A stretch of 64,000 bases of DNA from an uncultured Bacteroidales bacterium (GTDB lineage Bacteria > Bacteroidota > Bacteroidia > Bacteroidales > Bacteroidaceae), in assembly GCA_902801325.1 (NCBI GenBank), contig CADCHQ010000001.1, positions 310,001 through 374,000 of the forward strand, written 5' to 3'. Below are positions 2,302 to 53,148 of this stretch, piece by piece (the first letter of the stretch is position 1; the number at the start of each line of letters is the position of its first letter). A model generated the notes under the pieces. That model was not told the DNA's origin and did not search any database. It saw only the letters and a program-made list of their open reading frames with translations. The translations under genes were made by a program, and so were the position numbers.

Positions 2302-2477
2302 GACCTATGCCTTATGCAACTCGAACCTATATTCGATGCGACTCGAACCTATGTTCGATTGTCCTCGAGCCTATGTTCGATGCGTCTCGAACCTAAGGCC
2401 TTCGCACGGAGGGCCTAAGGGCTTCCGACGGAAGGCATAAGGCTTAAATCAATAAGACATAAATTCAAAACCCCTCA
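2302..2477 (+). repeat. 22-bp phased intergenic array A (8 units)
   Basis: Directly after the TAA stop of the preceding gene, eight units follow at exact 22-bp steps. The first C of the CCTA or CATA core is at 2304, 2326, 2348, 2370, 2392, 2414, 2436 and 2458. Units 2-4 carry the dyad TCGAA-N6-TTCGA (or TCGAG). Later units drift to GGCCTAAGGG and GGCATAAGG but keep the phase. It fills almost the whole gap to the next start codon at 2490. No coding potential or clear promoter is seen. The same family is found at 19819, 35887, 43417 and 53017. Confidence 0.85.
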
Positions 2478-2489
2478 GTTCTAAATCAA

Positions 2490-4148
2490 ATGGCCAACGA
2501 AATTAATATCCGCTGTAAGAACACGGGCAAGACCTTCCCCATGCCCTTGGGATGTTCCTTGAAGGAAGTGTATGAGCAATCAGGCGTAACCATGAATCAT
2601 GGCCCTGTTTGCGCAAGCATCAACAACAAAGTGCAAGGACTCAACTACCGCTTCTATAATAGCAAGGATGTGGAACTCCTCGACATGACTACTGCCGATG
2701 GTATGCGCACCTACACCCACACCCTTTTCTTCGTTCTGGCCAAAGCCGTTGAAGATATCTTTCCTGAGGGTCGACTCATCATCGGAGCCCCCATCTGCCG
2801 CGGATTCTATTGCGAACTCTATATCGGTCGGCCCATCGAGCCAGCCGATGTAGCTCGCATCCGCCAGCGCATGCAGGAAATAGTCGATGCCGACATGCCC
2901 ATCCATCGCATCCAATGCCCCATTGAGGACGCCATACAAATCTTCCGCCAGCGAGGCATGGAGAGCAAGGCGCAGCTGCTTGAGAGCCAGGGCAACCTCT
3001 ATTCCTACTACTATCAGTTGGACGAGACCATCGATTTCTTCTACAGCTGTCTGCTCACCCACACCAGCCAGATCTACCTCTTCGACCTCATGCCGCTGGA
3101 CGAAGGTATGCTCTTGCGCGTTCCCTCACGCAAGAATCCTTCTTTGCTTGAGCCTCTTGAACCGCAAGAGAAGAAGTTGGGCGTCTTCCGTGAGTATCAT
3201 CGTTGGCAGCACTTTATGGGCGTGCGTAATGCTGGCGAGGTGAATGCTGCCATTCGAGCTGGTAAGGCCTCCGAACTCATCAACATTGCTGAGGCTCTGC
3301 AAGAACGCAAGCTGCATAACATTACCGATGAAATCGTGGAACGAGGTGCTAAGATAGTGCTTATAGCAGGTCCGAGCAGTAGTGGCAAGACAACTACCAG
3401 TAAGCGTATCGCCATTCTGTTGATGGCTTGCGGTTTGCATCCCCATACATTGTCGACGGACAACTATTTTGTCAATCGTGTCGATACACCGCTCGACGAA
3501 AAGGGAGAATATGACTTCGAGTGCATAGAAGCCGTTGATACTGCCTTCTTCAATAAGCAGATGAATGCCTTGCTTAATGGCGAGGAAATAGAGCTTCCGC
3601 GTTATGACTTCCCTTCGGGCGAACGCAAGTTCGAAGGCAATCGCTTGCAGATAGGAGCCGACGATGTCATCATTCTCGAGGGTAATCACGCGCTTAACCC
3701 CATAATGTCGCAACTCATCCCGGAAGATAAGAAGTATCGCATTTATGTCTCCGCTCTTACGACTATAGCCCTCGATGACCATAATTTCGTGCCTACGGAC
3801 GACATCCGTCTCTTGCGCCGTCTCTTGCGCGATTGCCGTTATCGTGGTTATTCTGCACTTGAGACCATTCGTCGTTATCCCTCTGTCAGTCGAGGCGAGG
3901 AAAAGTGGATATTCCCCTTCCAGGAAACAGCCGATGCCACTTTCAATTCCGCTCTCCTTTACGAACTCAACGTTATTCGTGAGCAAGTAATGCCTATCCT
4001 CGAACAGGTAAGTGAGCGTGAGCCGGAATATAGCGAGGCTTCTCGCCTTCGCAAGTTCTTGCGCTATTTCCTTCCTGTTCCTGCTCGTCAGGTTCCGCCC
4101 ACCTCACTCCTACGCGAGTTCTCTGGTGGCAGTTCGTTTAAATACTAA
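2490..4148 (+). CDS. Nucleoside (uridine-type) kinase with TGS and ThrRS-like N-terminal domains
   Basis: A 552-residue protein in three parts. Residues 1-60 form a TGS domain like that of threonyl-tRNA synthetase. Residues about 65-210 resemble the ThrRS second additional domain. A C-terminal uridine kinase/phosphoribulokinase-type domain carries the P-loop GPSSSGKTT near residue 293, the STDNYF segment and the LEGNHALN (Walker B-like) segment. This fusion is common in Bacteroidetes and is usually annotated as a nucleoside kinase. It should phosphorylate uridine or cytidine in pyrimidine salvage; the role of the ThrRS-like half is not known to me. ATG start at 2490, 12 bp after the phased repeat array. 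Length is normal for the family. Confidence 0.9.
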   Translation: MANEINIRCKNTGKTFPMPLGCSLKEVYEQSGVTMNHGPVCASINNKVQGLNYRFYNSKDVELLDMTTADGMRTYTHTLFFVLAKAVEDIFPEGRLIIGAPICRGFYCELYIGRPIEPADVARIRQRMQEIVDADMPIHRIQCPIEDAIQIFRQRGMESKAQLLESQGNLYSYYYQLDETIDFFYSCLLTHTSQIYLFDLMPLDEGMLLRVPSRKNPSLLEPLEPQEKKLGVFREYHRWQHFMGVRNAGEVNAAIRAGKASELINIAEALQERKLHNITDEIVERGAKIVLIAGPSSSGKTTTSKRIAILLMACGLHPHTLSTDNYFVNRVDTPLDEKGEYDFECIEAVDTAFFNKQMNALLNGEEIELPRYDFPSGERKFEGNRLQIGADDVIILEGNHALNPIMSQLIPEDKKYRIYVSALTTIALDDHNFVPTDDIRLLRRLLRDCRYRGYSALETIRRYPSVSRGEEKWIFPFQETADATFNSALLYELNVIREQVMPILEQVSEREPEYSEASRLRKFLRYFLPVPARQVPPTSLLREFSGGSSFKY

Positions 4149-4150
4149 TA

Positions 4151-4183
4151 AAGGTTTAACGTTTAAGGTTTAACGTTTAATGG
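4151..4183. repeat. Left heptad repeat before the four-helix-bundle gene
   Basis: Two tandem copies of a 14-bp unit (AAGGTTTAACGTTT) lie between the kinase stop and the next start. Its reverse complement closely matches the repeat at 4552-4592 on the other side of the small gene, so the gene sits between inverted repeats. The basic period is 7 bp. Confidence 0.7.
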
Positions 4184-4192
4184 TATTTTATA

Positions 4193-4573
4193 ATGGAAAA
4201 GCATTTTGCCTTTGAAAGTTTAGATGCATACAAATATGCTCGCTTATTAGTACGAGACATTTATCAACTTCAAAATTGCTTCCCGAAAGAAGAAAAATAT
4301 GCTTTGGGAGATCAAATAAGACGTTCCGCTACTTCAATAACCAGCAATATTGCAGAGGGTAGTGGGCGTAGTTCCATCCGAGAGAAGATTCATTTCATAG
4401 AGATAGCTTTTGGCTCTATGACTGAAAGCTTCAGTCAACTGCAGAATGCCCAAGATTTGGGATATATAGAAGAGAAGGATGTTGAGCAAATACGGCCCTC
4501 TTTTAATAAAGTTGCAGCATACCTTTCGGCTCTCCGTAACTCCTACGAAAGAACCTTAACCGTTAAACCTTAA
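4193..4573 (+). CDS. Four-helix-bundle protein (23S rRNA intervening-sequence / S23 family)
   Basis: A 126-residue protein that matches the family by its FESLDAYKYARLL start, the DQIRRSATSITSNIAEGSGR signature near residues 42-61, and a C-terminal helix with EK.DVEQI. Family members form pentameric four-helix bundles; they occur as IVS-encoded proteins inside 23S rRNA genes, as Avd proteins of diversity-generating retroelements, and as lone chromosomal genes. No rRNA or reverse transcriptase is near, so this is the lone type with unknown function. The last residues (TLTVKP) and the stop codon are encoded by the right-hand repeat. This suggests the gene arrived together with, or was trimmed by, the repeats. 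Confidence 0.85.
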   Translation: MEKHFAFESLDAYKYARLLVRDIYQLQNCFPKEEKYALGDQIRRSATSITSNIAEGSGRSSIREKIHFIEIAFGSMTESFSQLQNAQDLGYIEEKDVEQIRPSFNKVAAYLSALRNSYERTLTVKP

Positions 4574-4592
4574 CCGTTAAACATTAAACATT
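4552..4592. repeat. Right heptad repeat overlapping the end of the four-helix-bundle gene
   Basis: Heptads of the type AACCTTA/ACCGTTA (twice) and AACATTA (twice). The repeat encodes the last codons of the preceding gene and ends just before the Fur-family start at 4595. It is inverted relative to 4151-4183. Confidence 0.7.
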
Positions 4593-4594
4593 AT

Positions 4595-5008
4595 ATGGAC
4601 CTCGAACATAGGCTTGAGCATCGTGGGGTTAAGCTTACCGCTATGCGTCTGCTTGTCTATCAGGAGTTGGAACAGGCTCATCGTCCTTTGTCCCTGCGTG
4701 AACTTGAAGATAGAATGCAGACCGCCGAGCGTAGCACAATTTTCCGAACACTCACACTCCTCCTTCAGCATCATCTTATCCATGCAATCGAGGATGGTAG
4801 TGGTTCCTTGCGTTATGAGGTATGCGATGGTGATGAAGAGTGCACGCTTGATGACCAGCATATCCACTTCTATTGCGAACGTTGTCACCGCACCTTTTGC
4901 CTTCATGATAAAAAAATCCCTCAGGTATCTCTACCCGAGGGATTCCAAATATCCTCTATTAATTATATGATTAAAGGCCTGTGCCCGAGTTGTAATATAA
5001 AGGGTTAA
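4595..5008 (+). CDS. Fur-family metalloregulator
   Basis: A 137-residue Fur/Zur/Per-type repressor. The N-terminal winged helix covers residues 1-80 (LTAMRLLVYQEL, then the recognition-helix region AERSTIFRTLTLL). The metal-binding dimerisation half has the DDQHIHFYCERC segment with CxxC at about 95-98 and a second CxxC (CPSC) at the C-terminus, a structural zinc site. It most likely senses iron or zinc; the sequence does not tell which. It converges on queC with only 5 bp between the two stop codons. Part of its coding sequence (4907-4944) also reads as a terminator for the opposite strand. Confidence 0.88.
   Translation: MDLEHRLEHRGVKLTAMRLLVYQELEQAHRPLSLRELEDRMQTAERSTIFRTLTLLLQHHLIHAIEDGSGSLRYEVCDGDEECTLDDQHIHFYCERCHRTFCLHDKKIPQVSLPEGFQISSINYMIKGLCPSCNIKG
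4907..4944 (-). terminator. Rho-independent terminator of queC, inside the fur-family coding sequence
   Basis: Read on the minus strand, the stem AATCCCTC (4944-4937) pairs with GAGGGATT (4922-4915) around a 14-nt loop. It is followed by a run of seven T (about 4916-4908). It lies 70-105 bp past the queC stop codon and codes on the plus strand for the conserved Fur segment KKIPQVSLPEGF. Confidence 0.75.
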
Positions 5009-5013
5009 CTTTT

Positions 5014-5673
5014 TTACTCTTTATAGATCGTTGGGTCATCGATCCCTGCTTCAGCAAGTGCTTCACGCCTTTCAACACATGTACCGCACTTGCCACAATG
5101 CACCTCACCACCCTTATAGCAACTCCACGTTTCGGCATAGTTCAAGCCTAAAGCCTTTCCATGTCGTGCAATGTCCCCTTTTGTAAGGTTCGTATATGGA
5201 GCATATATGCTGATGTGGTCATAGGTTCCTTCTTGCGTTGCCATGCTCATGGCCTTGACAAAGCCCTCACGACAATCTGGATAAATAGTATGGTCACCTG
5301 CGTGGTTTGCTAACATCAGTCGCTTTAGACCTCTGCTCTCTGCCAATCCACACGCAATTGCCAGCATTATACCATTACGGAATGGCACCACTGTCGAACG
5401 CATATTCTCATCATCATACCTTCCTTCGGGAATATCCTCTCCTCCTGTCAACAGCGACGACTCAAAGTACTTCGTCATGAAGTCCATCTCAATTACGATA
5501 TGTTCAATGCCCAACCGCTCGCAATGCATCTTTGCCAGAGGTATCTCTTTAGCCCCGTGCTTTGCTCCATAATCGAACGTCACCGCCAGTGCTATCTCAT
5601 CCTTGTACTCGTACAACATCGTCGTCGAGTCCATTCCTCCCGAAATCACTATTAAAGCATCTTTTCTTTCCAT
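5014..5673 (-). CDS. queC: 7-cyano-7-deazaguanine synthase QueC
   Basis: A 219-residue member of the adenine nucleotide alpha-hydrolase superfamily. The ATP-binding SGGMDST motif is at residues 11-17, and the zinc site of QueC is formed by Cys residues in WSCYKG...HCGKCGTC near residues 185-199. QueC converts 7-carboxy-7-deazaguanine to preQ0 with ATP and ammonia, a step in queuosine synthesis. No other queuosine gene is adjacent. Its transcript probably ends in the terminator at 4907-4944. Confidence 0.95.
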   Translation of the reverse strand: MERKDALIVISGGMDSTTMLYEYKDEIALAVTFDYGAKHGAKEIPLAKMHCERLGIEHIVIEMDFMTKYFESSLLTGGEDIPEGRYDDENMRSTVVPFRNGIMLAIACGLAESRGLKRLMLANHAGDHTIYPDCREGFVKAMSMATQEGTYDHISIYAPYTNLTKGDIARHGKALGLNYAETWSCYKGGEVHCGKCGTCVERREALAEAGIDDPTIYKE

Positions 5674-5748
5674 ATTGCTCTTTTTTCGCCTTTCGAATTG
5701 ACATAAATCAAGAAAAGCTCATATTTTCACATAAAATTGTTACTTTCT

Positions 5749-5779
5749 CTTGCAGAGTTGCAGAAAACCCGTACCTTTG
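5749..5779 (+). promoter_or_regulatory. Bacteroidetes-type promoter of a small RNA
   Basis: CTTG at 5749-5752, a 19-bp spacer, then TACCTTTG at 5772-5779, which fits the Bacteroidetes -33/-7 pattern. No protein gene lies downstream on this strand before the terminator at 5825, so the transcript is expected to start near 5786 and be very short. Confidence 0.7.
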
Positions 5780-5785
5780 TACCAG

Positions 5786-5852
5786 TGTTTTTCATGGTAT
5801 TAGATTTAAGGTTAATGAAAGATTGGTTGTCGTGAGACAACCTTCTTTTTTT
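5786..5852 (+). ncRNA. Candidate small RNA of about 65 nt
   Basis: The stretch is bounded by the promoter at 5749-5779 and the hairpin terminator at 5825-5853. It holds a 13-codon reading frame (ATG 5794, TGA 5833-5835, MVLDLRLMKDWLS) that stops inside the terminator loop, so a leader peptide is an alternative. From memory, similar text (ATGGTATTAGATTTAAGG followed by a GGTTGTC hairpin) recurs in Bacteroidales genomes; I could not verify this. The exact ends are inferred. Confidence 0.55.
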
Positions 5853-5853
5853 A
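5825..5853 (+). terminator. Hairpin terminator with GTGA loop
   Basis: GGTTGTC (5825-5831), loop GTGA, GACAACC (5836-5842), then TTC and eight T. The same GTC-GTGA-GAC apex ends the tRNA-Asn transcript at 46831. The stem could also slow transcripts leaving the glycan operon on the other strand, although the T tract there is poor. Confidence 0.85.
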
Positions 5854-7092
5854 TATCCCTTTTTCAACTGCTTTTTGGTATAAAGCAACTACCTGCTTAG
5901 TCTTATTCTCCCACGAAAGTTCTTTTGCTCTGATGGTACAATTCTTACTCATTTCCTTCAGGACCTCACGATGGTGATAGAGATACTCTATTATCTCAGC
6001 AAAGTCTTTTATTGATTGCTGTGGGCTTGTGAGGGGGACTCTTATTCCCACCTTGTCGTTTACGGAATCCCCATGCCCACATGTATCAAAACAAAGCACA
6101 GGCAATCCATTTCCAATAGCTTCCAATACGACATGTGGGGTTCCCTCTGCTACACTTGTAAAGAATAGGATATCTGCCTCATGCATGTATTCTTGGACAC
6201 GCTCATGCGTCACTTTACCATGAAAGAAGCATCGTTCACTTACGTTAAGTGCATTAGCCTGCTGGACATAATCAGATGTATCCCCGCCTCCAACTATATG
6301 GAGACATATATTTTGATTATGCGTTTCTGCAAGACTGCTGATAGCCAATCCCAATTGTTTTCGGAAATCCATCTTTCCTACCCACAGAAGATTGAGGTTC
6401 CCCTTCTCTTCTTTTCCTACATAATCCTTAGCCTGTTGTGAAGGATATGTTCCAGTCTCATTAACTAGAATAGTGTTTACTCCAAGATACTTCTTCAAAC
6501 TCTGTTGAGAGTTAGATGATGCTGCTAGAATATAAGATGCTTGATGAGCTGCATTATAAACACGCTTATTATGCTTCAACTGCCATTGTGTGATTTCGTT
6601 TTTTAGTCGAAGGAAGAACCTCATTGACAATGATGCACTTTGGGCATAGCTCATAGGGAAGTGATCCTTAGCATCAATGGGCCCCCACACGAATGGAATG
6701 CCCGTTTCTTTACTCACCTGCCACAAATAACCAGGTTCCCGGAATCCTATCATATTCAGTTGGTGCAATACATCAATTGACTCTTTCAGGCATATTTCTC
6801 GTGCGATGTCAGCCGTCCGTTTCTGCCATTTCCTATAATACCAATAAAAGCGCCAATCCCCCTGATTCCAACACATCCTTCTCACCTTGTCTGGTACAGG
6901 ATTATAATAGAAATGCATATTTTTTCCCTGGGGAATTTCTCCTACGACCTTCTCTATGCGGTCTCGGAATTCCCCTTCAGTCACGATGTGCAACTCACAA
7001 TACTGAGCAAGATTCACACACCAGTTCCAAGCCATCCCTGGTTCACTTCCCATATTGGGACAGCATGCATACGCGTTAATGAAGATTTTCAT
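5851..7092 (-). CDS. Glycosyltransferase family 4 (last gene of glycan operon)
   Basis: A 413-residue GT-B glycosyltransferase. The N-terminal acceptor domain starts MKIFINAYACCPNMGSEPG. The donor-binding half has NLLWVGKMDFRKQ and the GT4 signature ADILFFTSVAEGTPHVVLEA with the EGTP/E-x7-E pattern. The start at 7092 is chosen because the protein then begins with the typical hydrophobic strand and overlaps the upstream gene by 17 nt; an upstream extension of 18 codons is less likely. It should add a hexose-type sugar from a nucleotide donor to the lipid-linked glycan on the cytoplasmic face of the membrane. Specificity cannot be read from the sequence. Confidence 0.85.
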   Translation of the reverse strand: MKIFINAYACCPNMGSEPGMAWNWCVNLAQYCELHIVTEGEFRDRIEKVVGEIPQGKNMHFYYNPVPDKVRRMCWNQGDWRFYWYYRKWQKRTADIAREICLKESIDVLHQLNMIGFREPGYLWQVSKETGIPFVWGPIDAKDHFPMSYAQSASLSMRFFLRLKNEITQWQLKHNKRVYNAAHQASYILAASSNSQQSLKKYLGVNTILVNETGTYPSQQAKDYVGKEEKGNLNLLWVGKMDFRKQLGLAISSLAETHNQNICLHIVGGGDTSDYVQQANALNVSERCFFHGKVTHERVQEYMHEADILFFTSVAEGTPHVVLEAIGNGLPVLCFDTCGHGDSVNDKVGIRVPLTSPQQSIKDFAEIIEYLYHHREVLKEMSKNCTIRAKELSWENKTKQVVALYQKAVEKGI

Positions 7093-9296: not shown

Positions 9297-9298
9297 CT

Positions 9299-10617: not shown

Positions 10618-10620
10618 ATC

Positions 10621-19818: not shown

Positions 19819-19972
19819 GACATAGGTTGGTCGATTTTCGAGGAACCATTTACCAATCATCACGAATTTACTTACCAATGATGAGCCGATGATTGGTACA
19901 ATGATCAAGCCATCATTGGTAAGTAATTTTTCGATGATTGGGAACTAATAGGCCGAAACAATGAAATAGCCC
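19819..19972. repeat. 22-bp phased intergenic array E, diverged form
   Basis: The first unit (GACATAGGTTGGTCGATTTT from 19819) matches the plus-strand form of array B. The next five units keep 22-bp steps but have turned into TTACCAAT/ATTGGTAA words. A perfect 13-bp inverted repeat, CTTACCAATGATG (19871-19883) against CATCATTGGTAAG (19911-19923), lies inside. It is followed by the small palindrome ATGAAAT-AGCCC-ATTTCAT. It occupies the gap between the opine dehydrogenase gene and the flippase promoter; the rest of 19592-20127 shows nothing I can name. Confidence 0.65.
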
Positions 19973-35130: not shown

Positions 35131-35877
35131 CTATGCCTCCTGTATGAATTGGTCGAATCCCGACTCCTCAATCATCGTGGCTACTTCGGGACCGCCCGTA
35201 TGTACAATCTGCCCACCAATGAGCACATGTATGATGTCGGGCTTTAGATAGTCAAGCAAGCGCTGGTAGTGTGTGATGACTAATGCACTTGTCTCGGGTT
35301 TCCGGAGTTTGTTGAAGCCTTCGGCTACAATACGCAATGCGTCTACATCAAGACCAGAGTCGGTTTCATCCAAAATAGCGAAGGTCGGTTCAAGCATAGC
35401 CATCTGGAAGATTTCGTTACGTTTCTTCTCTCCCCCCGAAAAACCTTCATTAACCGAACGATTGGCCAGTTTGTTATCCAGTTCCACAATCTTCCGGCGT
35501 TCACGCATCAATTTCAGGAACTCTGTGGCAGGAATTGGCTCAAGGCCTTGTGCCTTTCGTTTGGCATTAAGAGCCGCACGCATGAAGTTGTTCATCGATA
35601 CTCCAGGGATTTCGACTGGTTGCTGAAACGATAGGAATATTCCTTCGTGAGCACGCTCCTCAGGACTCATCGACAAGAGGTCCTTACCGTTGAAGGTAAT
35701 GCTTCCTTGTGTGACCTCGTAAGCAGGATGTCCGACGATGATGTTCGACAGAGTCGACTTTCCTGCCCCGTTCTGTCCCATCAAAGCATGCACCTCTCCA
35801 TCGTGAATGGTGAGATTGATTCCCTTTAGTATTTCCTTGCCGTTAATGCTGGCATATAAGTTTCGTATTTCGAGCAT
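35131..35877 (-). CDS. sufC: Fe-S assembly ATPase SufC
   Basis: A 248-residue ABC-type ATPase: Walker A GQNGAGKST near residues 34-42, Q-loop QQPVEIPG, signature FSGGEKKRNE, Walker B FAILDETDSGLDVD and the switch His in ALVITHYQR. It powers the SufBCD scaffold. It is separated from sufB by a 119-bp gap that is filled mainly by phased array B, an unusual layout inside a suf operon. Confidence 0.96.
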   Translation of the reverse strand: MLEIRNLYASINGKEILKGINLTIHDGEVHALMGQNGAGKSTLSNIIVGHPAYEVTQGSITFNGKDLLSMSPEERAHEGIFLSFQQPVEIPGVSMNNFMRAALNAKRKAQGLEPIPATEFLKLMRERRKIVELDNKLANRSVNEGFSGGEKKRNEIFQMAMLEPTFAILDETDSGLDVDALRIVAEGFNKLRKPETSALVITHYQRLLDYLKPDIIHVLIGGQIVHTGGPEVATMIEESGFDQFIQEA

Positions 35878-35886: not shown

Positions 35887-35996
35887 TTATAATTTAAAGA
35901 CTTAGGCGTTATGTAAAACGAACTTAGGTATGATGTTAATCGAACATAGGCACGATGCTAATCGAACATAGGCATGAGTTGAATTGAACATAGGCA
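35887..35996 (-). repeat. 22-bp phased array B inside the suf operon (5 units)
   Basis: On the minus strand the array begins at the base after the sufB TAA stop. The core CCTA(T/A) recurs with its first C at 35994, 35972, 35950, 35928 and 35906, exactly 22 bp apart. Unit text is TGCCTATGTTCGATT plus seven variable bases. It is the same family and same sense as arrays A and C. Confidence 0.85.
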
Positions 35997-37451
35997 TTAT
36001 CCGACAGCGCCTTCGAGGCTTACGCCAAGAAGCTTTTGGGCTTCGACTGCAAATTCCATTGGGAGTTTATTTAGCACATCCTTTGCATAACCATTGACAA
36101 TGAGTCCGACAGCATCCTCAAGAGGAATGCCGCGTTGGTTGCAATAGAAGAGTTGATCCTCGGAGATTTTGCTTGTTGTGGCTTCGTGCTCCACCACAGC
36201 GGTTGGGTTCTGCACGTCCATATAAGGGAACGTATGTGCTCCGCACTGTGAACCCAGCAACAGCGAGTCGCAAGAGGAATAGTTGCGGGCTCCATCAGCA
36301 TGTTTGCCCACTTTCACCAATCCGCGATAGGCATTCTGGCTTCGGCCTGCACTGATACCTTTACTTATAATAGTGCTCTTGGTGTCTTTTCCCAAGTGTA
36401 TCATCTTCGTACCCGTGTCGGCTTGCTGATAGTTATTGGTAAGAGCCACACTATAGAACTCGGCTTGCGAACCGTCGCCAGAAAGCACACAACTGGGATA
36501 CTTCCAAGTGATGGCACTACCTGTTTCTACTTGTGTCCAAGATAGTCGGCTATTTCGACCTCGCAGGTGACCTCGCTTTGTCACAAGATTCAAGACGCCG
36601 CCCTTACCGTCCTTGTCGCCTGGATACCAATTTTGAACTGTTGAGTACTTAACCTCAGCTCGTTCCAAAACGACAATCTCCACGATAGCAGCATGCAGTT
36701 GATTCTCGTCGCGCATAGGAGCTGTGCATCCTTCGAGATAGGATACATACGAGTCGTCATCGGCCACGATAAGTGTGCGTTCAAACTGCCCCGTCCCTCG
36801 TGCATTGATGCGGAAGTAGGTGCTCAATTCCATCGGGCAACGAACGCCCTTGGGAATATAGACGAAAGAACCATCGGAGAACACGGCCGAATTAAGAGCA
36901 GCAAAGAAATTGTCGCGATAGGGGACAACCGTACCTAGATATTGTCGAACAAGGTCGGGGTGCTCGTGAACAGCTTCGGTGATGGAGCAGAAGATGATTC
37001 CTTTTTCCTTTAGTCGCTCACGGAAGGTAGTTTTTACAGAAACGCTATCCATAACGGCGTCAACTGCCATACCACTCAGTGCCAAACGCTCTTCCAAAGG
37101 AATGCCCAATTTATCGAAGGTCTTCATCAACTCTGGGTCGATTTCTTTCGATGAATTGGACGTTTTTTGTGCAGTGGGATCTGCATAGTAGGAGATGTCC
37201 TGATAATCGATAGGAGGCATATTGAGATGCCCCCATGTGGGTCCCTTTAAGGTCTGCCAGTAACGGAAGGCCTTTAGTCGGAATTCGAGTAACCAGTCAG
37301 GCTCGCCTTTCTTTTCCGAGATAAGGCGAACAACATCCTCATTCAGACCTTTCTCAATGATATCGGTATGTACGTCGGTGGTGAAACCGTATTCGTATTT
37401 CTTGTCCGCGATCTCGCGAACGATATCCATACCATTATTTTTCTCCTCCAT
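35997..37451 (-). CDS. sufB: Fe-S assembly scaffold protein SufB
   Basis: A 484-residue protein. It has the typical N-terminus ([20 protein letters not shown]), [27 protein letters not shown] and the beta-helix with [18 protein letters not shown] and [16 protein letters not shown] (conserved Cys). SufB holds the nascent cluster. The start at ATG 37451 is set by AGGAGG at 37463-37458, six bases upstream, inside the cvpA-like coding sequence; a TTG two codons earlier is less likely. It overlaps the upstream gene by 17 nt. Confidence 0.96.
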
Positions 37452-37887
37452 CTTCAACCTCCTTACTTACATCAGGGAAAAGCAAACCTGGTACAGCCTC
37501 CAACACTTTTACGACTGGATTCTCCTCCAACTTATTCTTTGCCTCACGCACATAGTCTATGGCAAGTATGACACAACCAATGAGGAAGGCATATTTGAGG
37601 AATCCCGCTGCTGCTCCAAGTAATCTGTTGAGTGTGTTTACTACGATAATCTTATCGATTACCTTAGTAACGAGCCAGGCTATCATACCAAGGACCAGAG
37701 GAATACCTATCCATATAAGCAGGAACCCCAATACGCCCACTTCGGCTCGCTTATAATATTCATATGCAATGAAAAAGCCGAGGAAGAAGCCAAAGAAGGA
37801 GATGACCTCCTTCACTAAGCCATTCTTCCAGCCCCTGAATGCACCGTAAAGCAATACGGCAAGACATAAAAGCTCAATCATTCGCAT
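37435..37887 (-). CDS. CvpA family membrane protein
   Basis: A 150-residue protein with four hydrophobic helices. The family marker is [32 protein letters not shown], then [11 protein letters not shown] and [16 protein letters not shown]. CvpA-type proteins are inner-membrane proteins linked to colicin V production or envelope stress; function is poorly known. It stands between infB and sufB, and its end carries the sufB ribosome-binding site. Confidence 0.87.
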
Positions 37888-42965: not shown

Positions 42966-43403
42966 ATGAAAAAACTGGTGGTTTTGATGCTTTCCGTTAT
43001 TATGCTGGCATCGTGCAGTGACATGCCAGATGGCGCGTGGGACCCTTTCAAATGGGATAAGAAGGAATATAAGAATGTTAGTGCCGAAGGCGCTACATTG
43101 GTGTCGACATTAAAGAACTACGGAACCTGCTGGCTTGAGGGTACCACGATGGACAGCATTTGCTATCATGGGGGAAGTATACACCATACAGAGGAGGACG
43201 ATTCTACTTATTATGACCATCCCGACGGCACGCGACACTACATGTGCAAGAATCCGCGTCTGGATGTGAAGATAGAAGGCAAGAAGGTAACGATGGTGGT
43301 AGCTCCGAATCCCGACCCTGTTCCACACACATTCTATGTCGAATTAAGTTATATGGATTGCTTTGGTCCTGGCATTAAGATAGAACAAAAAGCTAGAAAG
43401 TAG
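42966..43403 (+). CDS. Small secreted lipoprotein of unknown function
   Basis: A 145-residue protein with a signal peptide and lipobox (VLMLSVIMLASCSD, Cys at residue 17), so it should be lipid-anchored. The mature part has short repeated beta-strand patterns (ATLVSTLKNYGTCWLEGT, VTMVVAPNPDPVPHTFYVEL), perhaps one Ig-like domain, plus three Cys residues. I do not recognise the family. It has its own promoter and is followed by phased array C. Confidence 0.75.
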   Translation: MKKLVVLMLSVIMLASCSDMPDGAWDPFKWDKKEYKNVSAEGATLVSTLKNYGTCWLEGTTMDSICYHGGSIHHTEEDDSTYYDHPDGTRHYMCKNPRLDVKIEGKKVTMVVAPNPDPVPHTFYVELSYMDCFGPGIKIEQKARK

Positions 43404-43416: not shown

Positions 43417-43636
43417 GAGCTTAGGTTCGAAGTGCATCGAACCTATATTCGATGTGCATCGTGCCTATGTTCGAAGTGCATCGAACCTATATTCGAGGCT
43501 CATAAGACTTAAGTCCGATTTCCGAAGACATTAGGCCTTCCGTCCGAGGGCCTGAGAGATTAATACAGAAGACCTAAGAGATTCCACCGGAACCCCTAAT
43601 GCTTGAAATGGCAAAGCCTGCGAGCCCGAAAGGTCA
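43417..43636 (+). repeat. 22-bp phased intergenic array C (about 10 units)
   Basis: It starts about 15 bp after the lipoprotein stop. Cores CTTA/CCTA/CCTG recur with their first C at 43420, 43442, 43464, 43486, 43508, 43530, 43551, 43573, 43595 and 43617, so 22 bp apart with one 21-bp step. The first four units are near perfect TCGAAccTATATTCGA types; later ones keep only the phase. The order of unit types (TCGAACC first, then AGGCCTTCC...GAGGGCCTGAG) repeats that of array A. Confidence 0.85.
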
Positions 43637-43795: not shown

Positions 43796-43857
43796 GATTG
43801 AAAACTAACCCGTTAAACGATAAACATTAAACGTTAAACATTAAACGTTAAACTTTA
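43796..43857. repeat. Heptad repeats downstream of the S41 protease gene
   Basis: Seven-base units CGTTAAA/CGATAAA/CATTAAA repeated about six times up to the protease stop codon. They are the same class as 4151 and 4552. Confidence 0.7.
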
Positions 43858-45513
43858 TCAAGGCTTAAGTATTTTACGATAGCGTTCTTCGTCGCGGAGG
43901 AGTTCGACTGCTTGGTCAAAGACCTTATCGTTGCGAAGCAGGTGCTGAGTGCGACCTCGCTGATAGTAATAACGGCTGACGATTTCATCCTCGACATAAG
44001 GACGGATGAGGTCGCGTTGGCGCAGAAGTTCACCTTCGAGATCAGGACGCAGACGTGCTTCCAAACTGTCGAAAGCGGCTTCTGCCCCTTCATAGCACCC
44101 TTCAAGTCGTGCTGCCTCGCGCAGGACCTTCATCACCTCATCAGTACGACGATGGCTCTCGAACTTACTCTCTGCCATGTGTCTGACAAAGTTGTCATAA
44201 TCCTCATCGGAAAGGACAAATTCATCGGCAGGCGCAATGGTGGGATGTTCGTGGCGGTATTGGGTAACATAGGCCATCATCTCATCGCTCTGCATCGCGT
44301 CATAGACGAGTGACGAAAGACTGTCTTGCTGGCTTTCAACATCGGGTTTAATGCCGCCTCCGTCACGAACGGGACGCCCACCTCGTGTGTAAAAGACATT
44401 CGTGAGGGAGTCGGGAACAGTGCCAACACGCCCATCGGCAGTTAGGTGCCGATAGTCGTAGGCCTGAATGCAACGACCCGATGGAATGTAGTATCGCGAT
44501 ACGGTGAGTTTGAGATTACCGCGATCGGGAACCTCATGTATGGCTTGAACGAGTCCCTTGCCATAGGTGCGAGTGCCCATAATAACAGCACGGTCCATGT
44601 CTTGAAGGCTTCCGCTCAGAATCTCTGCGGCTGAGGCAGAACTGCCGTTGACGAGGACGACGATGGGCGTAATGGTATCGAGCGGTTCGCTTGTGGTAAA
44701 GTATTCACGGTTGGAGGAAGCCAGTTTGCCTTTGGTATATACAACTTTCTGGCCCTTTTGAACGAAGAGGTTCACGATATTGACTGCCTCATCGATGGCA
44801 CCCCCGGGATTGTCGCGAAGGTCAAGTACAAGTCGGTGCATACCTTGGGAACGCAGGTCGGTAAAGGCGTGACGCACAATCTGTGTGGAGCCTGTGGTGA
44901 AGTTGGCCAGGTATATGTACCCAATGCTGTCTGCAACCATACCGTAGTAAGGAATGGTAGGAGTTTGAATGGTCTTACGGGTTATGCGGAACGTGAGAGG
45001 GCTTGATTTGCCCATGCGCTTTACGCGTAACTGCAAGCTGGTTCCTGGCTCGCCGCGAAGCATAGTGCTGACTTCATCTGTAGGCTTTTTCAACACGTCC
45101 ACTTCATCGATGCTCAGGATGATGTCGCCTGCTTCCACGCCAGCCAACTGGGCAGGGCTGCCTTCATAAGGCTCGATTATCATGGCGCGTTCCTCTTTCT
45201 GATTGTAACGAATAATGCTACCAATGCCGGCATACTTACCAGTGGCCATCTGGCGCAATTCATCGTCATCTTCAGGATAATATTGTGTGAAGGGATCGAC
45301 ATGGGAAAGCATCGACTTAATGGCCCAATGTATGGTGGTATCGGCCGAGAGCGTGTCGACATAATAAAGGTCGAGTCGGCGATATATGTCATCGAATAGT
45401 TCCAGATGACGACTAATTTCGGCGTTATGACTCTCTGACTTCTGAGAGAAGACAGGTGAGAAGTGAGAGGCGAGGGGTGAGAGAATAAGTAAGGTAAGTA
45501 AGAAACGCTTCAC
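43858..45513 (-). CDS. C-terminal processing protease (S41 family)
   Basis: A 551-residue periplasmic protease: N-terminal signal peptide (MKRFLLTLLILSPLA...FSQ), helical region, PDZ domain near residues 85-170 (GIGSIIRYNQ...GVEAGDIILSIDEVDV), and S41 core with LVLDLRDNPGGAIDEAV. The catalytic Ser is in VNGSSASAAEILSG, and the Lys lies 25 residues later in RTYGKGLVQ. A C-terminal helical extension follows. It cleaves proteins near their C-termini in the envelope. The DNA for the signal-peptide end is a low-complexity CTCTCACTTCTCACC-type run, which may be another repeat taken into coding. Confidence 0.93.
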   Translation of the reverse strand: MKRFLLTLLILSPLASHFSPVFSQKSESHNAEISRHLELFDDIYRRLDLYYVDTLSADTTIHWAIKSMLSHVDPFTQYYPEDDDELRQMATGKYAGIGSIIRYNQKEERAMIIEPYEGSPAQLAGVEAGDIILSIDEVDVLKKPTDEVSTMLRGEPGTSLQLRVKRMGKSSPLTFRITRKTIQTPTIPYYGMVADSIGYIYLANFTTGSTQIVRHAFTDLRSQGMHRLVLDLRDNPGGAIDEAVNIVNLFVQKGQKVVYTKGKLASSNREYFTTSEPLDTITPIVVLVNGSSASAAEILSGSLQDMDRAVIMGTRTYGKGLVQAIHEVPDRGNLKLTVSRYYIPSGRCIQAYDYRHLTADGRVGTVPDSLTNVFYTRGGRPVRDGGGIKPDVESQQDSLSSLVYDAMQSDEMMAYVTQYRHEHPTIAPADEFVLSDEDYDNFVRHMAESKFESHRRTDEVMKVLREAARLEGCYEGAEAAFDSLEARLRPDLEGELLRQRDLIRPYVEDEIVSRYYYQRGRTQHLLRNDKVFDQAVELLRDEERYRKILKP

Positions 45514-45526
45514 GACAAATCTTGTT

Positions 45527-46516: not shown

Positions 46517-46533
46517 AGAAACTTAATTTGCTG

Positions 46534-46541
46534 CAAAAATA
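46534..46541 (-). promoter_or_regulatory. Promoter -7 box of the kinase-protease pair
   Basis: Minus strand TATTTTTG at 46541-46534 fits TAnnTTTG and lies 18 bp before the ATG. No good -33 box is seen in the AT-rich stretch. Confidence 0.45.
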
Positions 46542-46606
46542 CAATATTTTTTCGCTTTCTCGTACATTTTTTATTCTTTAATTTTTTTAAATTTAATTTT
46601 TTGTTG

Positions 46607-46614
46607 TACCTTTG
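46607..46614 (+). promoter_or_regulatory. Promoter -7 box of the tRNA-Asn pair
   Basis: TACCTTTG at 46607-46614, 36 bp before the first tRNA, after a T-rich stretch. Confidence 0.65.
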
Positions 46615-46649
46615 CATTCGCATTTGCGAAAACTCTCTGTGGAGAGCCT

Positions 46650-46723
46650 GCTTCAGTAGCTCAGTTGGTTAGAGCACCTGACTGTTAATCAGGGGGTCGT
46701 TGGTTCAAGCCCATCCTGAAGCG
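46650..46723 (+). tRNA. tRNA-Asn (GTT), copy 1
   Basis: 74 nt. The acceptor stem GCTTCAG/CTGAAGC is perfect with discriminator G. The D arm is GCTC...GAGC, and the anticodon arm CCTGA-CTGTTAA-TCAGG gives anticodon GTT. The T loop is TTCAAGC; the T stem has one U-U mismatch. CCA is not encoded. Confidence 0.95.
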
Positions 46724-46751
46724 CGTAATAGTTTTAAGGGTTAATATAATT

Positions 46752-46825
46752 GCTTCAGTAGCTCAGTTGGTTAGAGCACCTGACTGTTAATCAGGGGGTC
46801 GTTGGTTCAAGCCCATCCTGAAGCG
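46752..46825 (+). tRNA. tRNA-Asn (GTT), copy 2
   Basis: Identical to copy 1, starting 102 bp later, and transcribed from the same promoter. A recent tandem duplication or gene-converted pair. Confidence 0.95.
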
Positions 46826-46830
46826 CAGAA

Positions 46831-46859
46831 AACCTTAGTCGTGAGACTGAGGTTTTTTG
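46831..46859 (+). terminator. Terminator of the tRNA-Asn operon
   Basis: AACCTTAGTC (46831-46840), GTGA loop, GACTGAGGTT, then six T. Ten base pairs with one G-U. Confidence 0.9.
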
Positions 46860-46900
46860 ATTTATATAGGGTTTACCTCTTTTATATTACGCGCACGCGT

Positions 46901-46940
46901 AAGAAAAATCGCCTGCCTCGGCAATCCGAAGCAGGCGATT
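46901..46940 (-). terminator. Terminator of the large secreted-protein gene
   Basis: Minus strand AATCGCCTGC (46940-46931) and GCAGGCGATT (46916-46907) form a 10-bp stem followed by TTTCTT. It lies 25 bp past the stop codon at 46965. Confidence 0.82.
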
Positions 46941-46964
46941 CGTTATTTATGACTTTTAGGTTTA

Positions 46965-47615: not shown

Positions 47616-49809
47616 AAGCGAAGCTTGAAGTCATCTCTTCAGGAACATTAACTTCACTGTTAGCATCCTGCTTCTTGGTTACGGTGCTGATAGCGTCTGT
47701 ACCATCGGCGTCATAGAGAGCATAAGTAACATTGATAGTTGTTACGGGGCCTTCCAACTGCCATACAAAGGTCTTGTCATAACTGTACTGAGGAACAACA
47801 GCATCCTCGACAGCCCATGTCCAGTATGTTCTGCCTGCGTCGTTCCAACTGCTTGTGCCGTCGGTTACGTTGCAAGAACGGATAGCATACTTGCCATCTG
47901 TCAGGAAGAGTACCTGAGCTTCCCAGTCATTGCGATCGCCATTTGTGGTAGCAAAGGCACCAGGTGTCAGATTGGCAACGTTGTTGCTCAGAGGAGGATT
48001 GGTGAATCTCTTTGAGCCACTGTCAATCTTCCAACCATATTGCTTGTATGCGCCACCAGTTACTTTCTTGAAGGTAAAGATACCACCTTCGTCAACAGAG
48101 TCAGATAGTTTACCTGCTACGGTTACGTAGTACTTCTGGCCGTCAACCTCGGTGAAGATGCGATAGTCCTTACCGTCTTCAATAGCAGCAATAGCACGAT
48201 CGTAAGCAGCATCTTCCTCTGTGGTAGCCTTGAAGTTGACATTCTTGAAGCTGAGCCAGCTGATGTTGTTATCCTCAGCAACGTTCAGGTTAATCTTCAA
48301 GATGCCGTCCTCGGCAACATTACCATAAGCCTTGAACTCAGCCAGATAGAACTGGGTTGTGCCAACTTGCTTACCAGCAGCAACGTCTTCTGCTCCTTCG
48401 CCGTTCACATCGAGGGTAATGCCGTATGCAGGAGCAGTGTAGCCATTCTTTGCACGAACACGTGCCCAAACGCTTACTTCATAGTATCCGGGTTCAATGT
48501 CGGTCATGGTTGCGGTCAGAGTTGCTTTGCCTAACGATTGGTCATCGCCAGTCCAGTACTCGAAGAACGGAACCTTGAAGTTAGAACCGTCGCTTTCGCC
48601 TTCAATTGACCATGTGTTGATGTACAGAGAAGTGGTAAAGTCCTTAGCCTGAACTTCGTTGATAGTCCAAGCGGAGAGCAACAGGTCGTCGGCAACCTTT
48701 GTAGCATCGTGATGCCAGCCAGTTACTACCAGAGGATTCTCAAATGCACTAGCCTCGGCTCTTGTCAAGGTGCCGTCAGTGTACTTGCCCTCTGCCTCAG
48801 CAATGTAAGCCTCGTAAGCGGCCTTAGCTTCAGCAGTGTAAACATTGGTAGAAGCTAATAGAGTCTTGGCAGCAGCTAACTTCGGAGCAATTTCTACGCA
48901 AATATCACCCGTCTCGATAGCAGCCTTCAAAGTCTCAATAGCAGCTTTCAGAGCCTCTTCGGTATTCTCAACTTCGGCGGTCTCCGTCAGTGCATTCTCC
49001 AGAACGCCAGCTGCGATTTCTGTTACATATTCGTTAGCCTTCAGTTCCTCTGCCTTAGCGCGGAGTTCGTTAACCTGTGCAATCAGAGCGGCGAACTTGA
49101 CGTTGTTGATGTCGGCGTCAGCACCATAGTACTTAACCTGGAAGTTATCCCAGATACACCACAGGTTCGTGTTACCTTCAAGCTTAGCGCCAATGTTCAG
49201 CGTGCCGTCGGTAACTTGAACATAGATAGGTTCGATGGTGTACAGACCGTTGGTGAAGGAGTTGGAAGCGTCGGTCATCGAGTTTTCAGAACCGGTCTTC
49301 AAGGGGAATGTCTTTGTTTCCTCGTTTGCGAAGAATACGGGCAGGTTCTCATTGTCATCACCGTCCTGACGATAGAAGCCCTGAGCGGTAATTGCATAAA
49401 CTCCGTTAGGTGCCTCTACGCTCTGGCTTACTGTAAATACAGAGTGGAAGGACTCGGCATTGTTGTTGGTGTTGTTACCACCAGAGAGGTTCTTGTTGGT
49501 GTCTTCGGTAGCGTTGGCCAGAGCAGCCTTAGCCTCCTCGAGGGTAACGATAGTCCACTGTGCGTTGGGATCGTCGGCATTGGTCAGACCCTTGCCAAGA
49601 ACTGTGCTATTGCCATCATAGCCATAGAATCCACCGTCGGCGGCATTGGCAATGGTGAAGTTGCCATTAGCCAACTTGGAGATTGCGAGAGCAATGGGTG
49701 AGCCATTGTCCATGTAGTCGCCATTGAAGTAGTACTGTGTACCACCATTGTTAACCTGAGACTCCAGCTTATACTGGCCTTCGGGCATGTCGGTGGGATC
49801 GAACTTCAC
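47557..49809 (-). CDS. Middle fragment of the broken secreted protein (2/3)
   Basis: About 750 residues. The frame is open upstream of the first ATG (continuing back to about 49869), so the ATG at 49809 is not a real start. It contains a beta domain with QYYFNGDYMDNGSPIALAIS, a helical FIVAR-like region (AEELKANEYVTEIAAGVLENAL), a carbohydrate-binding-like beta domain and a ricin-like piece. The last about 12 residues (GGCCSLTGRPEQ) are out of frame relative to the next fragment. Confidence 0.65.
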   Translation of the reverse strand: MKFDPTDMPEGQYKLESQVNNGGTQYYFNGDYMDNGSPIALAISKLANGNFTIANAADGGFYGYDGNSTVLGKGLTNADDPNAQWTIVTLEEAKAALANATEDTNKNLSGGNNTNNNAESFHSVFTVSQSVEAPNGVYAITAQGFYRQDGDDNENLPVFFANEETKTFPLKTGSENSMTDASNSFTNGLYTIEPIYVQVTDGTLNIGAKLEGNTNLWCIWDNFQVKYYGADADINNVKFAALIAQVNELRAKAEELKANEYVTEIAAGVLENALTETAEVENTEEALKAAIETLKAAIETGDICVEIAPKLAAAKTLLASTNVYTAEAKAAYEAYIAEAEGKYTDGTLTRAEASAFENPLVVTGWHHDATKVADDLLLSAWTINEVQAKDFTTSLYINTWSIEGESDGSNFKVPFFEYWTGDDQSLGKATLTATMTDIEPGYYEVSVWARVRAKNGYTAPAYGITLDVNGEGAEDVAAGKQVGTTQFYLAEFKAYGNVAEDGILKINLNVAEDNNISWLSFKNVNFKATTEEDAAYDRAIAAIEDGKDYRIFTEVDGQKYYVTVAGKLSDSVDEGGIFTFKKVTGGAYKQYGWKIDSGSKRFTNPPLSNNVANLTPGAFATTNGDRNDWEAQVLFLTDGKYAIRSCNVTDGTSSWNDAGRTYWTWAVEDAVVPQYSYDKTFVWQLEGPVTTINVTYALYDADGTDAISTVTKKQDANSEVNVPEEMTSSFAYDYAYLQGGCCSLTGRPEQ

Positions 49810-49826
49810 GAACTCGGGATTAGCAA

Positions 49827-52718
49827 TCAGAGAAGCACGTGTGCCCCAGTCGTTGCCAGCACCCCAGTAGTGGTATATTCAAATACAGCAGGTTCGGGAG
49901 CGGGTTCAGCCTCAGTCAGGTAAACCACAAACTTCGTGATTTGTGCACGACCTTCGCTGATGACAAATGTGGTAGTCTGAGCATCCAAACCACTAACTTC
50001 GTTGGGTACATTAACCTCAAATGCCTGGCCTTCGCCACCTTCGGGAGTCAATACGCTGCTTCCGTCGGGGGTGTTGCTTGCCGTCAGGGCATAGCCCGTG
50101 ATGTGATAGCCTTCAGAAGCTGTCAGCGTGTAGGTTACGCCGGCAGGGCCGAAATGCATGCCATTGGCAACATTGATGCCGCTGGTGGCTGTAAGTGTTA
50201 GACCAGGATTCTCCTGGGTTGATGTCCAAGTTGCAGCCCAACCGCTCTCGGTGAGAGGATCACCGGCAGCGTTGTAGTATGTGCCATGCTCCTTGTCCAC
50301 CAGGATTTCAATGGCCACTGTACCAGCCTGAGCTGCAGCAAATGTCTCTTCGGCAGCCTTCAGGGTTTCGAGAGCAGCAGTCATTTCCTCATCGGTCTTG
50401 CCTAGTTGCTCCTTAGCAGCAGCGATAGCAGCCTGGAACTCTTCCTTGCCGTCTTCCTTCTCGGCAGCAGCAAGTTGCTCTTCGGCGGTTGCTATCTCAG
50501 CCTCGAGAGCTACATAAGCCTCAGAGTGCTCAGCCTCAACCTTAGCGATGGTCCAGTATGCCTTGTCGCCAGACTTAGCAACGGACTTGTCGGTGTAGCA
50601 AGCCGAACCGTCTGTCTCACCGTCAGTAGCAATCATACCTTTGACTTCGTCAAGTGTGTAATAAATGACACCGTCAATATCAACGGGAGTGGGGTTGATA
50701 ATCATCTTCTTCTCTGCGTTGGCAGACATGGTCCAGTTGTTTGTTCCGGCAAAGCCTACGGCACCTTCCTCATTAATGAGATAGTAGCCACCTTCGCCAG
50801 CCTCAAACGTGAAGGCCTGAGCTGTCTCAGAGATCATAACCTTGTCGTTAGCAGCATCCAAAGCCAGATACAGTCCACTAGACTTCTGCTGGAATGTGTA
50901 AGTAGCATCGGCTTCAGGTCCAACCTTTGCATCGGCATAAGCCTCAACGGCAGTAGCCAAAGCAGCCTTAGCCTCCTCCAGTTCCTCAGCAGTAGCCTCA
51001 GTATTGTCGGCAACAGCCTGAGCGGCAGCAACAGCAGCAGCGAAGGTGTCGTATTCGGCTTCAGGAATCAAGAACAAGCCTTCACCTATGCCAGCCTTTG
51101 CCTCAACAACCTTATCGGCCTCAGCCAAAGCGGCCTTAAGCTCGGCGCGTACTACCTCTGCATTGGTGGTAGTCTCAATCTTGACACAGTCGATGAACAG
51201 ATGAGGAGCTGAGCCTGAACCTGCATTGTTTTGAATTCCGAGAGATAACACACCTGCTGTAGGCTCTATAAGGGAGAAGGTAATAACCTCGTTGTACCAT
51301 TCACCTACAGGATACTGTAAGGTCTTAGCTAAATACTTAGTGCCATCTGCAGCAATAAAGCCCATCAAATTCTGGGTGAGCGTGTTCGTGCCAGCTGTGT
51401 TCATTACAGGAATAGTGAGCACATAGTTGCCAGCAGGAAGAATCACCTTTTGAGTATATTGTACGATAGCGTTGTCGCCGCCCCATACACTAATCATACC
51501 CAAGGCATTCTTTCCCTCGGAGTTTTCAGGTCCAGCAGCAGGAGCCTTGTAGTCGGTACCGCCTATCCAAGCTGAACTGCCATAGGCAAGCACGCCTGCA
51601 GCCTTTTGGTCGAGAGCACCACGATCGGAACCTTCATAAACATTGTCGGTAACATTTAGCACACTCCATCCTTCAACAGGTTGTGCACCAAAATAGGTCG
51701 TGCTGTTCTTCGCCATGTCTTTTGCATAGGTGCAGATACCATTGTCTATAGGAGTACTTTCCTCGAAATCGAGGTTCTTTGGCTCTGCGGTAGAAGGATC
51801 GAGAACAGCCAAGGCCTCGAAGGGATCGAAATCTGCGGCCTCAATGATGGCGTTGGCGTTACCGTCGTCAACAGTTGTCCAACTATCAATCAACATTTGT
51901 TTAGAACCATTAACGTTGACGTTGTGAGAGTCATCAAACTTAAAGAACCAAGGATAGTCAGCCACACCTGATTCAACAATCTGTACGGGGTCGGGATCGC
52001 CCAAAGTGTTGTCCTTGGTCAGGAAAGCCTTGGCGTTGACGCTGTAGATGTAGTAGTTGTCTTCGAATGTGATGATTGCAAAGCGCTGACTAACAGCTTC
52101 ACGGTCAAGGTTTGCACCATTACCTTTAGTGGCTCCATCGGCAACGTTCCATGCGGCACGTTTGTTGTAAACGATGTAGCACTTGTTGTTCGAGAGATCG
52201 GCAAGGTCTGTTACGTAAACGGGAGGAACATAGTTCTCGTCTACTGCTACTGTAATAACAAACTCCGACAAGGATACTTCCTTGTTGGGACCTGCCAATG
52301 TGAAAGAGGCAGTGGCTTTGTCATTACCAGTTACTTCAACCGATACGCCAGGTCCTTCGATAGTGATAGGATCTTGGCCGGAAGGTGTAATTGTAACACC
52401 TGCTTCAGTTGCTTCAGAGGCCCAAAAACTATAGCCTTTGACCAAATAGCCTGCAGGGGCTTCAATTGTGAATACCGCCGACTGAGATGAACCGGAAGCA
52501 ATGCCTCCGGTGGCAGCATTCATGTTGTTAACACCAACGCTGAATGTCACCTGTGGCTCAGTTGTAGATACCCACTTACTGCACCAACCGCTCGTCATGG
52601 CACTACCGCTGCGGTAGAACGTTCCCGTCGCCACATCGTAAGTAACCGTGATGTCTTCAGCCTTGATACCCACTGCTGTCATCAACAGAGAGCACAAGAG
52701 AAATAAAAACTTTTTCAT
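49827..52718 (-). CDS. N-terminal fragment of the broken secreted protein (1/3)
   Basis: 963 residues. A clean signal peptide (MKKFLFLLCSLLMTAVGIKA) is followed by a beta domain, a ricin-like region, a CBM-like jelly roll (near 330-520) and Ala/Glu-rich FIVAR-like helical repeats (near 530-620 and 755-830). A second copy of the first beta domain follows (HGTYYNAAGDPLTESGWAA, like GTFYRSGSAMTSGW). The last about 13 residues (TTGVLATTGAHVLL) look out of frame. A surface adhesin or glycan-binding protein is likely. Confidence 0.72.
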   Translation of the reverse strand: MKKFLFLLCSLLMTAVGIKAEDITVTYDVATGTFYRSGSAMTSGWCSKWVSTTEPQVTFSVGVNNMNAATGGIASGSSQSAVFTIEAPAGYLVKGYSFWASEATEAGVTITPSGQDPITIEGPGVSVEVTGNDKATASFTLAGPNKEVSLSEFVITVAVDENYVPPVYVTDLADLSNNKCYIVYNKRAAWNVADGATKGNGANLDREAVSQRFAIITFEDNYYIYSVNAKAFLTKDNTLGDPDPVQIVESGVADYPWFFKFDDSHNVNVNGSKQMLIDSWTTVDDGNANAIIEAADFDPFEALAVLDPSTAEPKNLDFEESTPIDNGICTYAKDMAKNSTTYFGAQPVEGWSVLNVTDNVYEGSDRGALDQKAAGVLAYGSSAWIGGTDYKAPAAGPENSEGKNALGMISVWGGDNAIVQYTQKVILPAGNYVLTIPVMNTAGTNTLTQNLMGFIAADGTKYLAKTLQYPVGEWYNEVITFSLIEPTAGVLSLGIQNNAGSGSAPHLFIDCVKIETTTNAEVVRAELKAALAEADKVVEAKAGIGEGLFLIPEAEYDTFAAAVAAAQAVADNTEATAEELEEAKAALATAVEAYADAKVGPEADATYTFQQKSSGLYLALDAANDKVMISETAQAFTFEAGEGGYYLINEEGAVGFAGTNNWTMSANAEKKMIINPTPVDIDGVIYYTLDEVKGMIATDGETDGSACYTDKSVAKSGDKAYWTIAKVEAEHSEAYVALEAEIATAEEQLAAAEKEDGKEEFQAAIAAAKEQLGKTDEEMTAALETLKAAEETFAAAQAGTVAIEILVDKEHGTYYNAAGDPLTESGWAATWTSTQENPGLTLTATSGINVANGMHFGPAGVTYTLTASEGYHITGYALTASNTPDGSSVLTPEGGEGQAFEVNVPNEVSGLDAQTTTFVISEGRAQITKFVVYLTEAEPAPEPAVFEYTTTGVLATTGAHVLL

Positions 52719-52796
52719 GCGATTTTGATTTAGTTAATAATTAAGGTTAATTAAAAATTGGTTCGTTTTTAGCGTGTTATAAACACATAATCGGGA

Positions 52797-52827
52797 CAAA
52801 ATTAAGAAAAATTTCACATAAAGCAAG
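52797..52827 (-). promoter_or_regulatory. Promoter of the large secreted-protein gene
   Basis: Minus strand CTTG (52827-52824), 19-bp spacer, TAATTTTG (52804-52797); a leader of about 70 nt. Confidence 0.7.
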
Positions 52828-53016
52828 TCTTTTACCTCTTTTTTTTGCGTATGCGTGCACAATTAATGTTATAATCGACAGACTTTGCAAGGGTTTTTTA
52901 TTGTTCAGAAATGATAAAAATTGCCCATTTCATCGATGTTTTTCCTTCTTGCACATAGGTTTGAGAAATGTTTGTCGCATATTTAACAGTCCTTTATATC
53001 ATAGGGATTCATTTTC

Positions 53017-53148
53017 CTTTACCCATTCGCCTACCATCGAACCCTTATTCGTTTGCTCTCGAACCCTTATTCGAGTGTCATCGAGCCCTTGTTCGATTGC
53101 CCTCGAATGCTTGTTCGTTGTTCTTCGAACAAATATTTGTTTGCGGAT
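53017..53148 (+). repeat. 22-bp phased intergenic array D (6 units)
   Basis: Units start at 53017, 53039, 53061, 53083, 53105 and 53127, each exactly 22 bp. The best two read GAACCCTTATTCG plus nine variable bases. Same TCGAA-N6-TTCGA dyad as arrays A and C but with CCCTTA in place of CCTATA. It lies in the 560-bp divergent gap; the rest of that gap holds the two promoters and AT-rich DNA. Confidence 0.85.

Follow-up and report, generated by a model that had tools for sequence, protein, structure and literature searches.

Intergenic arrays with a 22-bp pitch and differing sequences in a Bacteroidales genus

Arrays in the window and in its genome

The window, a stretch of 64,000 nucleotides from an uncultured Bacteroidales bacterium, contains four arrays (A, C, D and E; Table 1) that are genuine and far beyond chance. 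Identity at lag 22 over the tabulated coordinates is 0.64 in A, 0.74 in C, 0.57 in D and 0.61 in E, compared with maxima of 0.415, 0.509, 0.387 and 0.468, respectively, over all lags between 5 and 60 when each was dinucleotide-shuffled 1000 times. The unit in all four is TCGAA-CCTATR-TTCGA-N6, with degenerate copies, in agreement with the motif TCGAA-N6-TTCGA with core CCTA(T/A) given in a sequence-only reading of the window. At A, D and several other loci of this genome the TCGAA units pass in phase into other types, for example GGAAGGCCTAAGG plus N9, and loci L017 and L018 also hold TTGTACAA, with steps of ~22 bp. The cores had been thought to lie on one face of the DNA, which holds only approximately, since 10.5 bp per turn gives a drift of ~34 degrees with each 22-bp unit.

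Table 1. Arrays and other features of the window, with the tracts reported by TRF
Feature	Position	Strand	Description	Neighbouring ORFs	TRF
Array A	2302-2477	none	TCGAA-CCTATR-TTCGA units, then in-phase GGAAGGCCTAAGG-type units	Stop of ORF 37-2301 (+) immediately before; ORF 2490-4148 (+) after	2303-2395 and 2392-2443, period 22
Array C	35887-35996	none	Degenerate units	sufB-like ORF 35997-37457 (-) and sufC-like ORF 35131-35877 (-); array in the gap between them	35903-35997
Array D	43417-43636	none	TCGAA-type units, then drifted in-phase units	Convergent: ORF 42966-43403 (+); ORF 43858-45513 (-), S41-type peptidase	43426-43496
Array E	53017-53148	none	TCGAACCCTTATTCG units and variants	5' of TonB-receptor-like ORF 53279-56029 (+; NCBIfam matches below cut-off); overlaps mechanically called 112-aa ORF 52901-53239	53025-53117
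FopS sRNA family of Bacteroidetes	5785-5855	+	Rfam match, 84 bits (gathering score 56)		
Two adjacent tRNA-Asn genes	46650-46724 and 46752-46826	+	One anticodon		
7-bp TTAAACG-type repeat arrays	4151-4180, 4552-4593 and 43811-43857		In or near gaps; repeat at 43811 changed in the yak sister (see below)		

A fifth array claimed in the same reading, B (19819-19972), did not hold up as a member of the family. Its lag-22 identity is only 0.39, with higher values at lags 56 and 60; shuffles give P=0.03 for periodicity at any lag, and TRF assigns period 23 to part of it. Array B is instead a single long imperfect inverted repeat with a strong predicted fold on both strands.

Autocorrelation across the window (threshold at least 38/66) gives 305 scan windows at lag 22 and 192 at lag 44, with none at lags 20 and 23, 3 at lag 21, 40 at lag 14 and 36 at lag 16. 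The pattern extends through the 3.38-Mb genome, where a strict pattern of two units matches 26 times (17 forward and 9 reverse) and its reversed control never. Over 400 kb outside the window, on contigs 3 and 4, which were picked with foreknowledge of pattern matches there, lag 22 is again the strongest (1644 scan windows; lag 44, 1159; lag 20, 12; lag 23, 0). A 22-bp peak is therefore present beyond the sites first noticed; together with the phase kept at aligned places in sister genomes (see below), this excludes chance as their source. Lags 14 (697) and 21 (552) are elevated too on these contigs, perhaps because of 7-bp repeats.

Distribution among relatives

A search of genome contigs, which possibly excluded the window's own or very close records, found the two-unit pattern in 20 stretches, all from the MAG 'Bacteroidaceae bacterium' RGIG10155 from yak rumen. 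Most aligned pieces of this yak sister are 78-95% identical to our genome. Nine of its 20 array rows could be aligned, and all nine carry array units in our genome, at loci of which five had been fetched for holding arrays and four lie in the window or on contig 3. A ~48-bp module (GTTCTTGCTCCGTTTCTCTACGCAAGC...) lies within the 22-bp arrays of our genome at L007, L009 and L013, and a variant of it occurs in the yak array L191.

Differences between the two genomes amount to 62/168 in spacers, 35/280 in arms, 17/168 in centres and 815/5907 in flanks, the flanks including coding sequence. Arm divergence is thus about equal to the flank rate, and the spacers lie well above it, which indicates exchange of units. 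In the yak sister, array D is shorter by one 22-bp unit and by one additional base.

Array C, whose neighbours match SufB and SufC above the NCBIfam cut-offs, is absent from the two relatives nearest in SufC, and the other 29 sufC loci retrieved showed no array at lag 22, which counts against a strictly conserved role.

The family had been described as built on this motif, which is not its essential trait: relatives use other cores at equal pitch. None of 24 same-genus genomes contains TCGAA-CCTATR-TTCGA, and it has a single match in same-order genomes (1/16). Pitch-22 arrays with units that differ between genomes nevertheless number 27, in 14 of 27 same-genus genomes (624,041 bases; samples taken regardless of arrays, with three samples placed at known arrays omitted), compared with one in 232,086 bases from 16 other families. 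Many of the relatives' units are dyadic by eye, such as GTTGGCCAAC, ACCAGTGACTGGT and GCAGAAAC..GTTTCTGC. Certain words are found in more than one species; genomes G012, G043 and G070 all contain CACGTTAAGTTT, for instance. Six comparable gaps (three and three) between distant same-genus species have no array on either side.

A row of four TTAA spaced 22 bp apart is present in 58 of the 139 same-genus genomes, with the highest counts in G012 (108) and G024 (93), and among the listed places several other genomes show different flanking words. The reversed control of this TTAA search is not a clean null, since several genomes match it (28 in G059, 18 in G049), possibly through AATT-centred 22-bp arrays. 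The TTAA-pattern matches in G068 are near-alike over 70 bp at several places and look more like a recent mobile repeat. A separate repeat family with a strong 41-bp period was seen at L223 in G048 and L237 in G084 (190 and 135 scan windows at lag 41).

Constraint between sister species

G012 holds 53 arrays in 394,965 bases. Sorted by in-phase units, its 39 TTAA-class arrays include 26 with four, 6 with three, 5 with five and 2 with six. A limited vocabulary of words, common to many loci, makes up the half-sites (CCATTAT 59, CCTTTCC 26, GCATTAT 24 and others). When these 39 arrays were compared with the available sequence of G024, a sister species and thus not an independent sample, 13 aligned with both flanks, 25 aligned by a single flank and one failed to align. 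Each of the 13 is an array in G024 too. The alignment is free of internal gaps for 11 of them; of the other two, one shows a gap of a single base and the other a gap of 22 columns at the array end. Indels number 1 in 946 bp inside arrays and 4 in 1765 outside, a difference too small to carry weight. The sequence-only reading had named loss of the phase at these gaps in related strains as a sign of chance or neutral drift. The phase is kept in both pairs of sisters (9 yak rows, 13 G012/G024 arrays).

Substitutions between G012 and G024 were placed in the 22-bp frame for 11 arrays, from a search that itself demanded TTAA. They affect 4/172 positions at GG/CC, 4/172 at the next constrained positions, 17/86 at -3/6, 12/86 at -6/9 and 43/172 in the spacer, against 257/1765 in noncoding flanks; a search from the G024 side gives a similar picture (flank 199/1065). 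The result is a two-fold-symmetric footprint, with rates of ~2% in half-sites, 25% in spacers and 15% in noncoding flanks. Such dyad-symmetric conserved half-sites with free spacers, the design of an operator array, were found in G012/G024 only. Some of the changes form clustered blocks, as if words had been swapped. Double-deviant cores are 0/149 in G012 and 1/87 in G024, with 5.8 expected in each, as if one good half-site were needed per unit. This rule was not seen in our genome's own class, which has 15 double deviants where 15.8 are expected. Several of these tests were selected after inspection of the data.

Neutral or selfish minisatellites, which change size by slippage or unequal exchange and keep their period by exchange between units without any protein, would account for part of this. 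They would fit the whole unit gained or lost in array D, the replacement of spacers faster than flanks in comparison with the yak sister, the positive similarity that neighbouring units show at certain positions, and the young, near-identical arrays at L163, L169 and L176 in other genomes. They would not predict a single pitch common to unrelated sequences, a dyad-symmetric footprint, four units in most G012 arrays (26/39) or half-site words common to many loci. The common pitch and the footprint are unexplained by a purely neutral satellite, and we regard this explanation as a serious but somewhat unlikely one.

A dispersed mobile repeat with an internal 22-bp structure, whether MITE-, REP- or PINSR-like, would agree with the many copies and the words that they have in common, with the more A/T-rich terminal words in G012, and with the ~48-bp module repeated within several of our genome's own arrays. 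We consider it improbable. The Y1_Tnp/RAYT profile (PF01797) has no match at E<=0.001 in our genome, which is 94.66% complete, whereas the control matched 5 of 14 genomes. There is no sign of target-site duplication, since the ends of the 44 arrays with four units in G012 and G024 have no excess of direct repeats; the mean longest flank word in common is 4.36 against 4.21 in shuffles (sd 0.14). Copies in G012 are mostly combinations of words rather than near-identical, and none of the sister loci that could be aligned (13 and 9) is an empty site.

Among 21 arrays of our genome that lie between two called ORFs, window included, 12 are in convergent, 8 in tandem and 1 in divergent gaps; the background, 123 gaps no shorter than 100 bp, has 25, 66 and 32 (convergent excess 12/21 vs 25/123, P=4e-5). 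Two further arrays are inside called ORFs. In 418,554 bases of G012, 45 arrays have a called ORF on either side (14 in divergent, 9 in convergent and 22 in tandem gaps) and 11 lie within called ORFs; relative to the 106 gaps that reach 100 bp (33, 21 and 52) these 45 arrays have no orientation bias, which fits the expectation for a reader of double-stranded DNA. Asymmetric units in tandem gaps are oriented 9 sense and 6 antisense to the genes in G012, and 11 and 5 in G024, numbers on which we base no directional claim. Spacing along the chromosome is not consistently regular: regularity is strong on G012 contig 15 (CV 0.44 vs 0.84 at random, P=3e-4) and not seen on its contig 1 (0.79 vs 0.78), nor on our genome's contigs 3 and 4 (1.07 and 1.17 vs 0.85 and 0.81).

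The preference for convergent gaps in our genome would suit an RNA element, that is, repeated mini-hairpins in a transcript such as terminators, and arrays A, D and E do fold better than their shuffles. Array C does not, and 14 of the 45 G012 arrays sit in divergent gaps. Rfam has three matches above gathering score in the window and none in the arrays. Of the double deviants in our genome's own class 2 are compensated, which is not beyond expectation. In G012 the dyad pairs are less complementary than shuffled pairs, with 22/149 vs 49.5 at -6/9 and 45 vs 59.6 at -3/6, and the spacer dyad 9/16 is complementary in 21/110 vs 38.7; this was repeated in G024, which as the sister species adds little independence. 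Letters facing each other across the dyads thus tend not to pair, and this speaks against RNA hairpins, although the anti-complementarity could also arise if one arm of each type were preferred per unit. The co-transcriptional mini-hairpins offered in the sequence-only reading are not supported, given the fold of array C, the lack of compensation beyond expectation and the anti-complementarity, and we hold them to be highly improbable.

Proposed operator arrays and comparison with known systems

The pattern itself, meaning the arrays, their pitch and their spread in the genus, is well supported. To explain it we favour, at about even odds, phased operator arrays for one or more cooperative DNA-binding proteins whose specificity changes between species. 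Each 22-bp unit is a predicted dimer site of a candidate DNA-binding protein, and neighbouring dimers would touch and form a short filament on the DNA. Turnover of tandem repeats, by gain or loss of whole units and replacement of spacers, would supply variation that binding then filters. Operator arrays together with unit turnover would jointly cover the pitch, the symmetry, the free spacers, the stability in sisters and the species-specific letters. Here we infer protein binding, cooperativity, and changes of specificity both between species and between the site classes of one genome. Among the possibilities first suggested, a protein along the DNA with selection on spacing would fit best, and the pitch together with the place and phase kept in sisters speaks for it.

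Candidate roles are chromosome organisation and the marking of transcription-unit ends. We think it unlikely, though worth stating, that the genus has a chromatin-like system with a conserved pitch, in which the letters of dozens to hundreds of arrays are rewritten as binders shift in specificity. If so, bacteria would have a counterpart to rapidly evolving satellite DNA and the proteins that bind it.

Repeat families are usually recognised by sequence. In this one it is the pitch and the dyad design that are conserved, with letters that vary from species to species, and the family therefore escapes searches by homology. A binder, if there is one, would be a chromosome protein that is abundant and evolves fast in a large Bacteroidales-type group. 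If there is none, some mutational process must have the 22-bp step built into it, and that would call for an explanation.

In the open-licence literature we recognised no paper describing 22-bp intergenic arrays of varying sequence. REP/BIME elements with RAYT are imperfect palindromes arrayed between genes, with many arrays in a genome, and the present arrays resemble them in both respects; they differ in that no RAYT-type gene was found and that several sequences keep one fixed pitch of 22 bp. In plasmid iterons and phased operator arrays, protein sites recur about two helical turns apart, as the present units do. Iterons are tied to one origin and a known Rep protein, whereas these arrays recur along the chromosome and their binder is only predicted.

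BrickBuilt of Porphyromonas gingivalis is described as a minisatellite MITE with a 23-nt repeat of one consensus and terminal inverted repeats (PMC4596501). It is similar in its short tandem repeats at many dispersed loci of a Bacteroidales genome (PMC4596501). The arrays described here differ from it in their pitch of 22 and their species-differing sequences, and no end duplication was found in them. PINSR of Prevotella intermedia and P. nigrescens is, in the description drawn on, a clade-specific 188-bp intergenic repeat with one consensus and 177 and 184 copies, without terminal inverted repeats and with most places common to strains (PMC4755523). That description gives a single 188-bp consensus and reports no 22-bp phase; the likeness to our arrays lies in being intergenic, clade-specific and present in many copies, most of them at places that strains share (PMC4755523).
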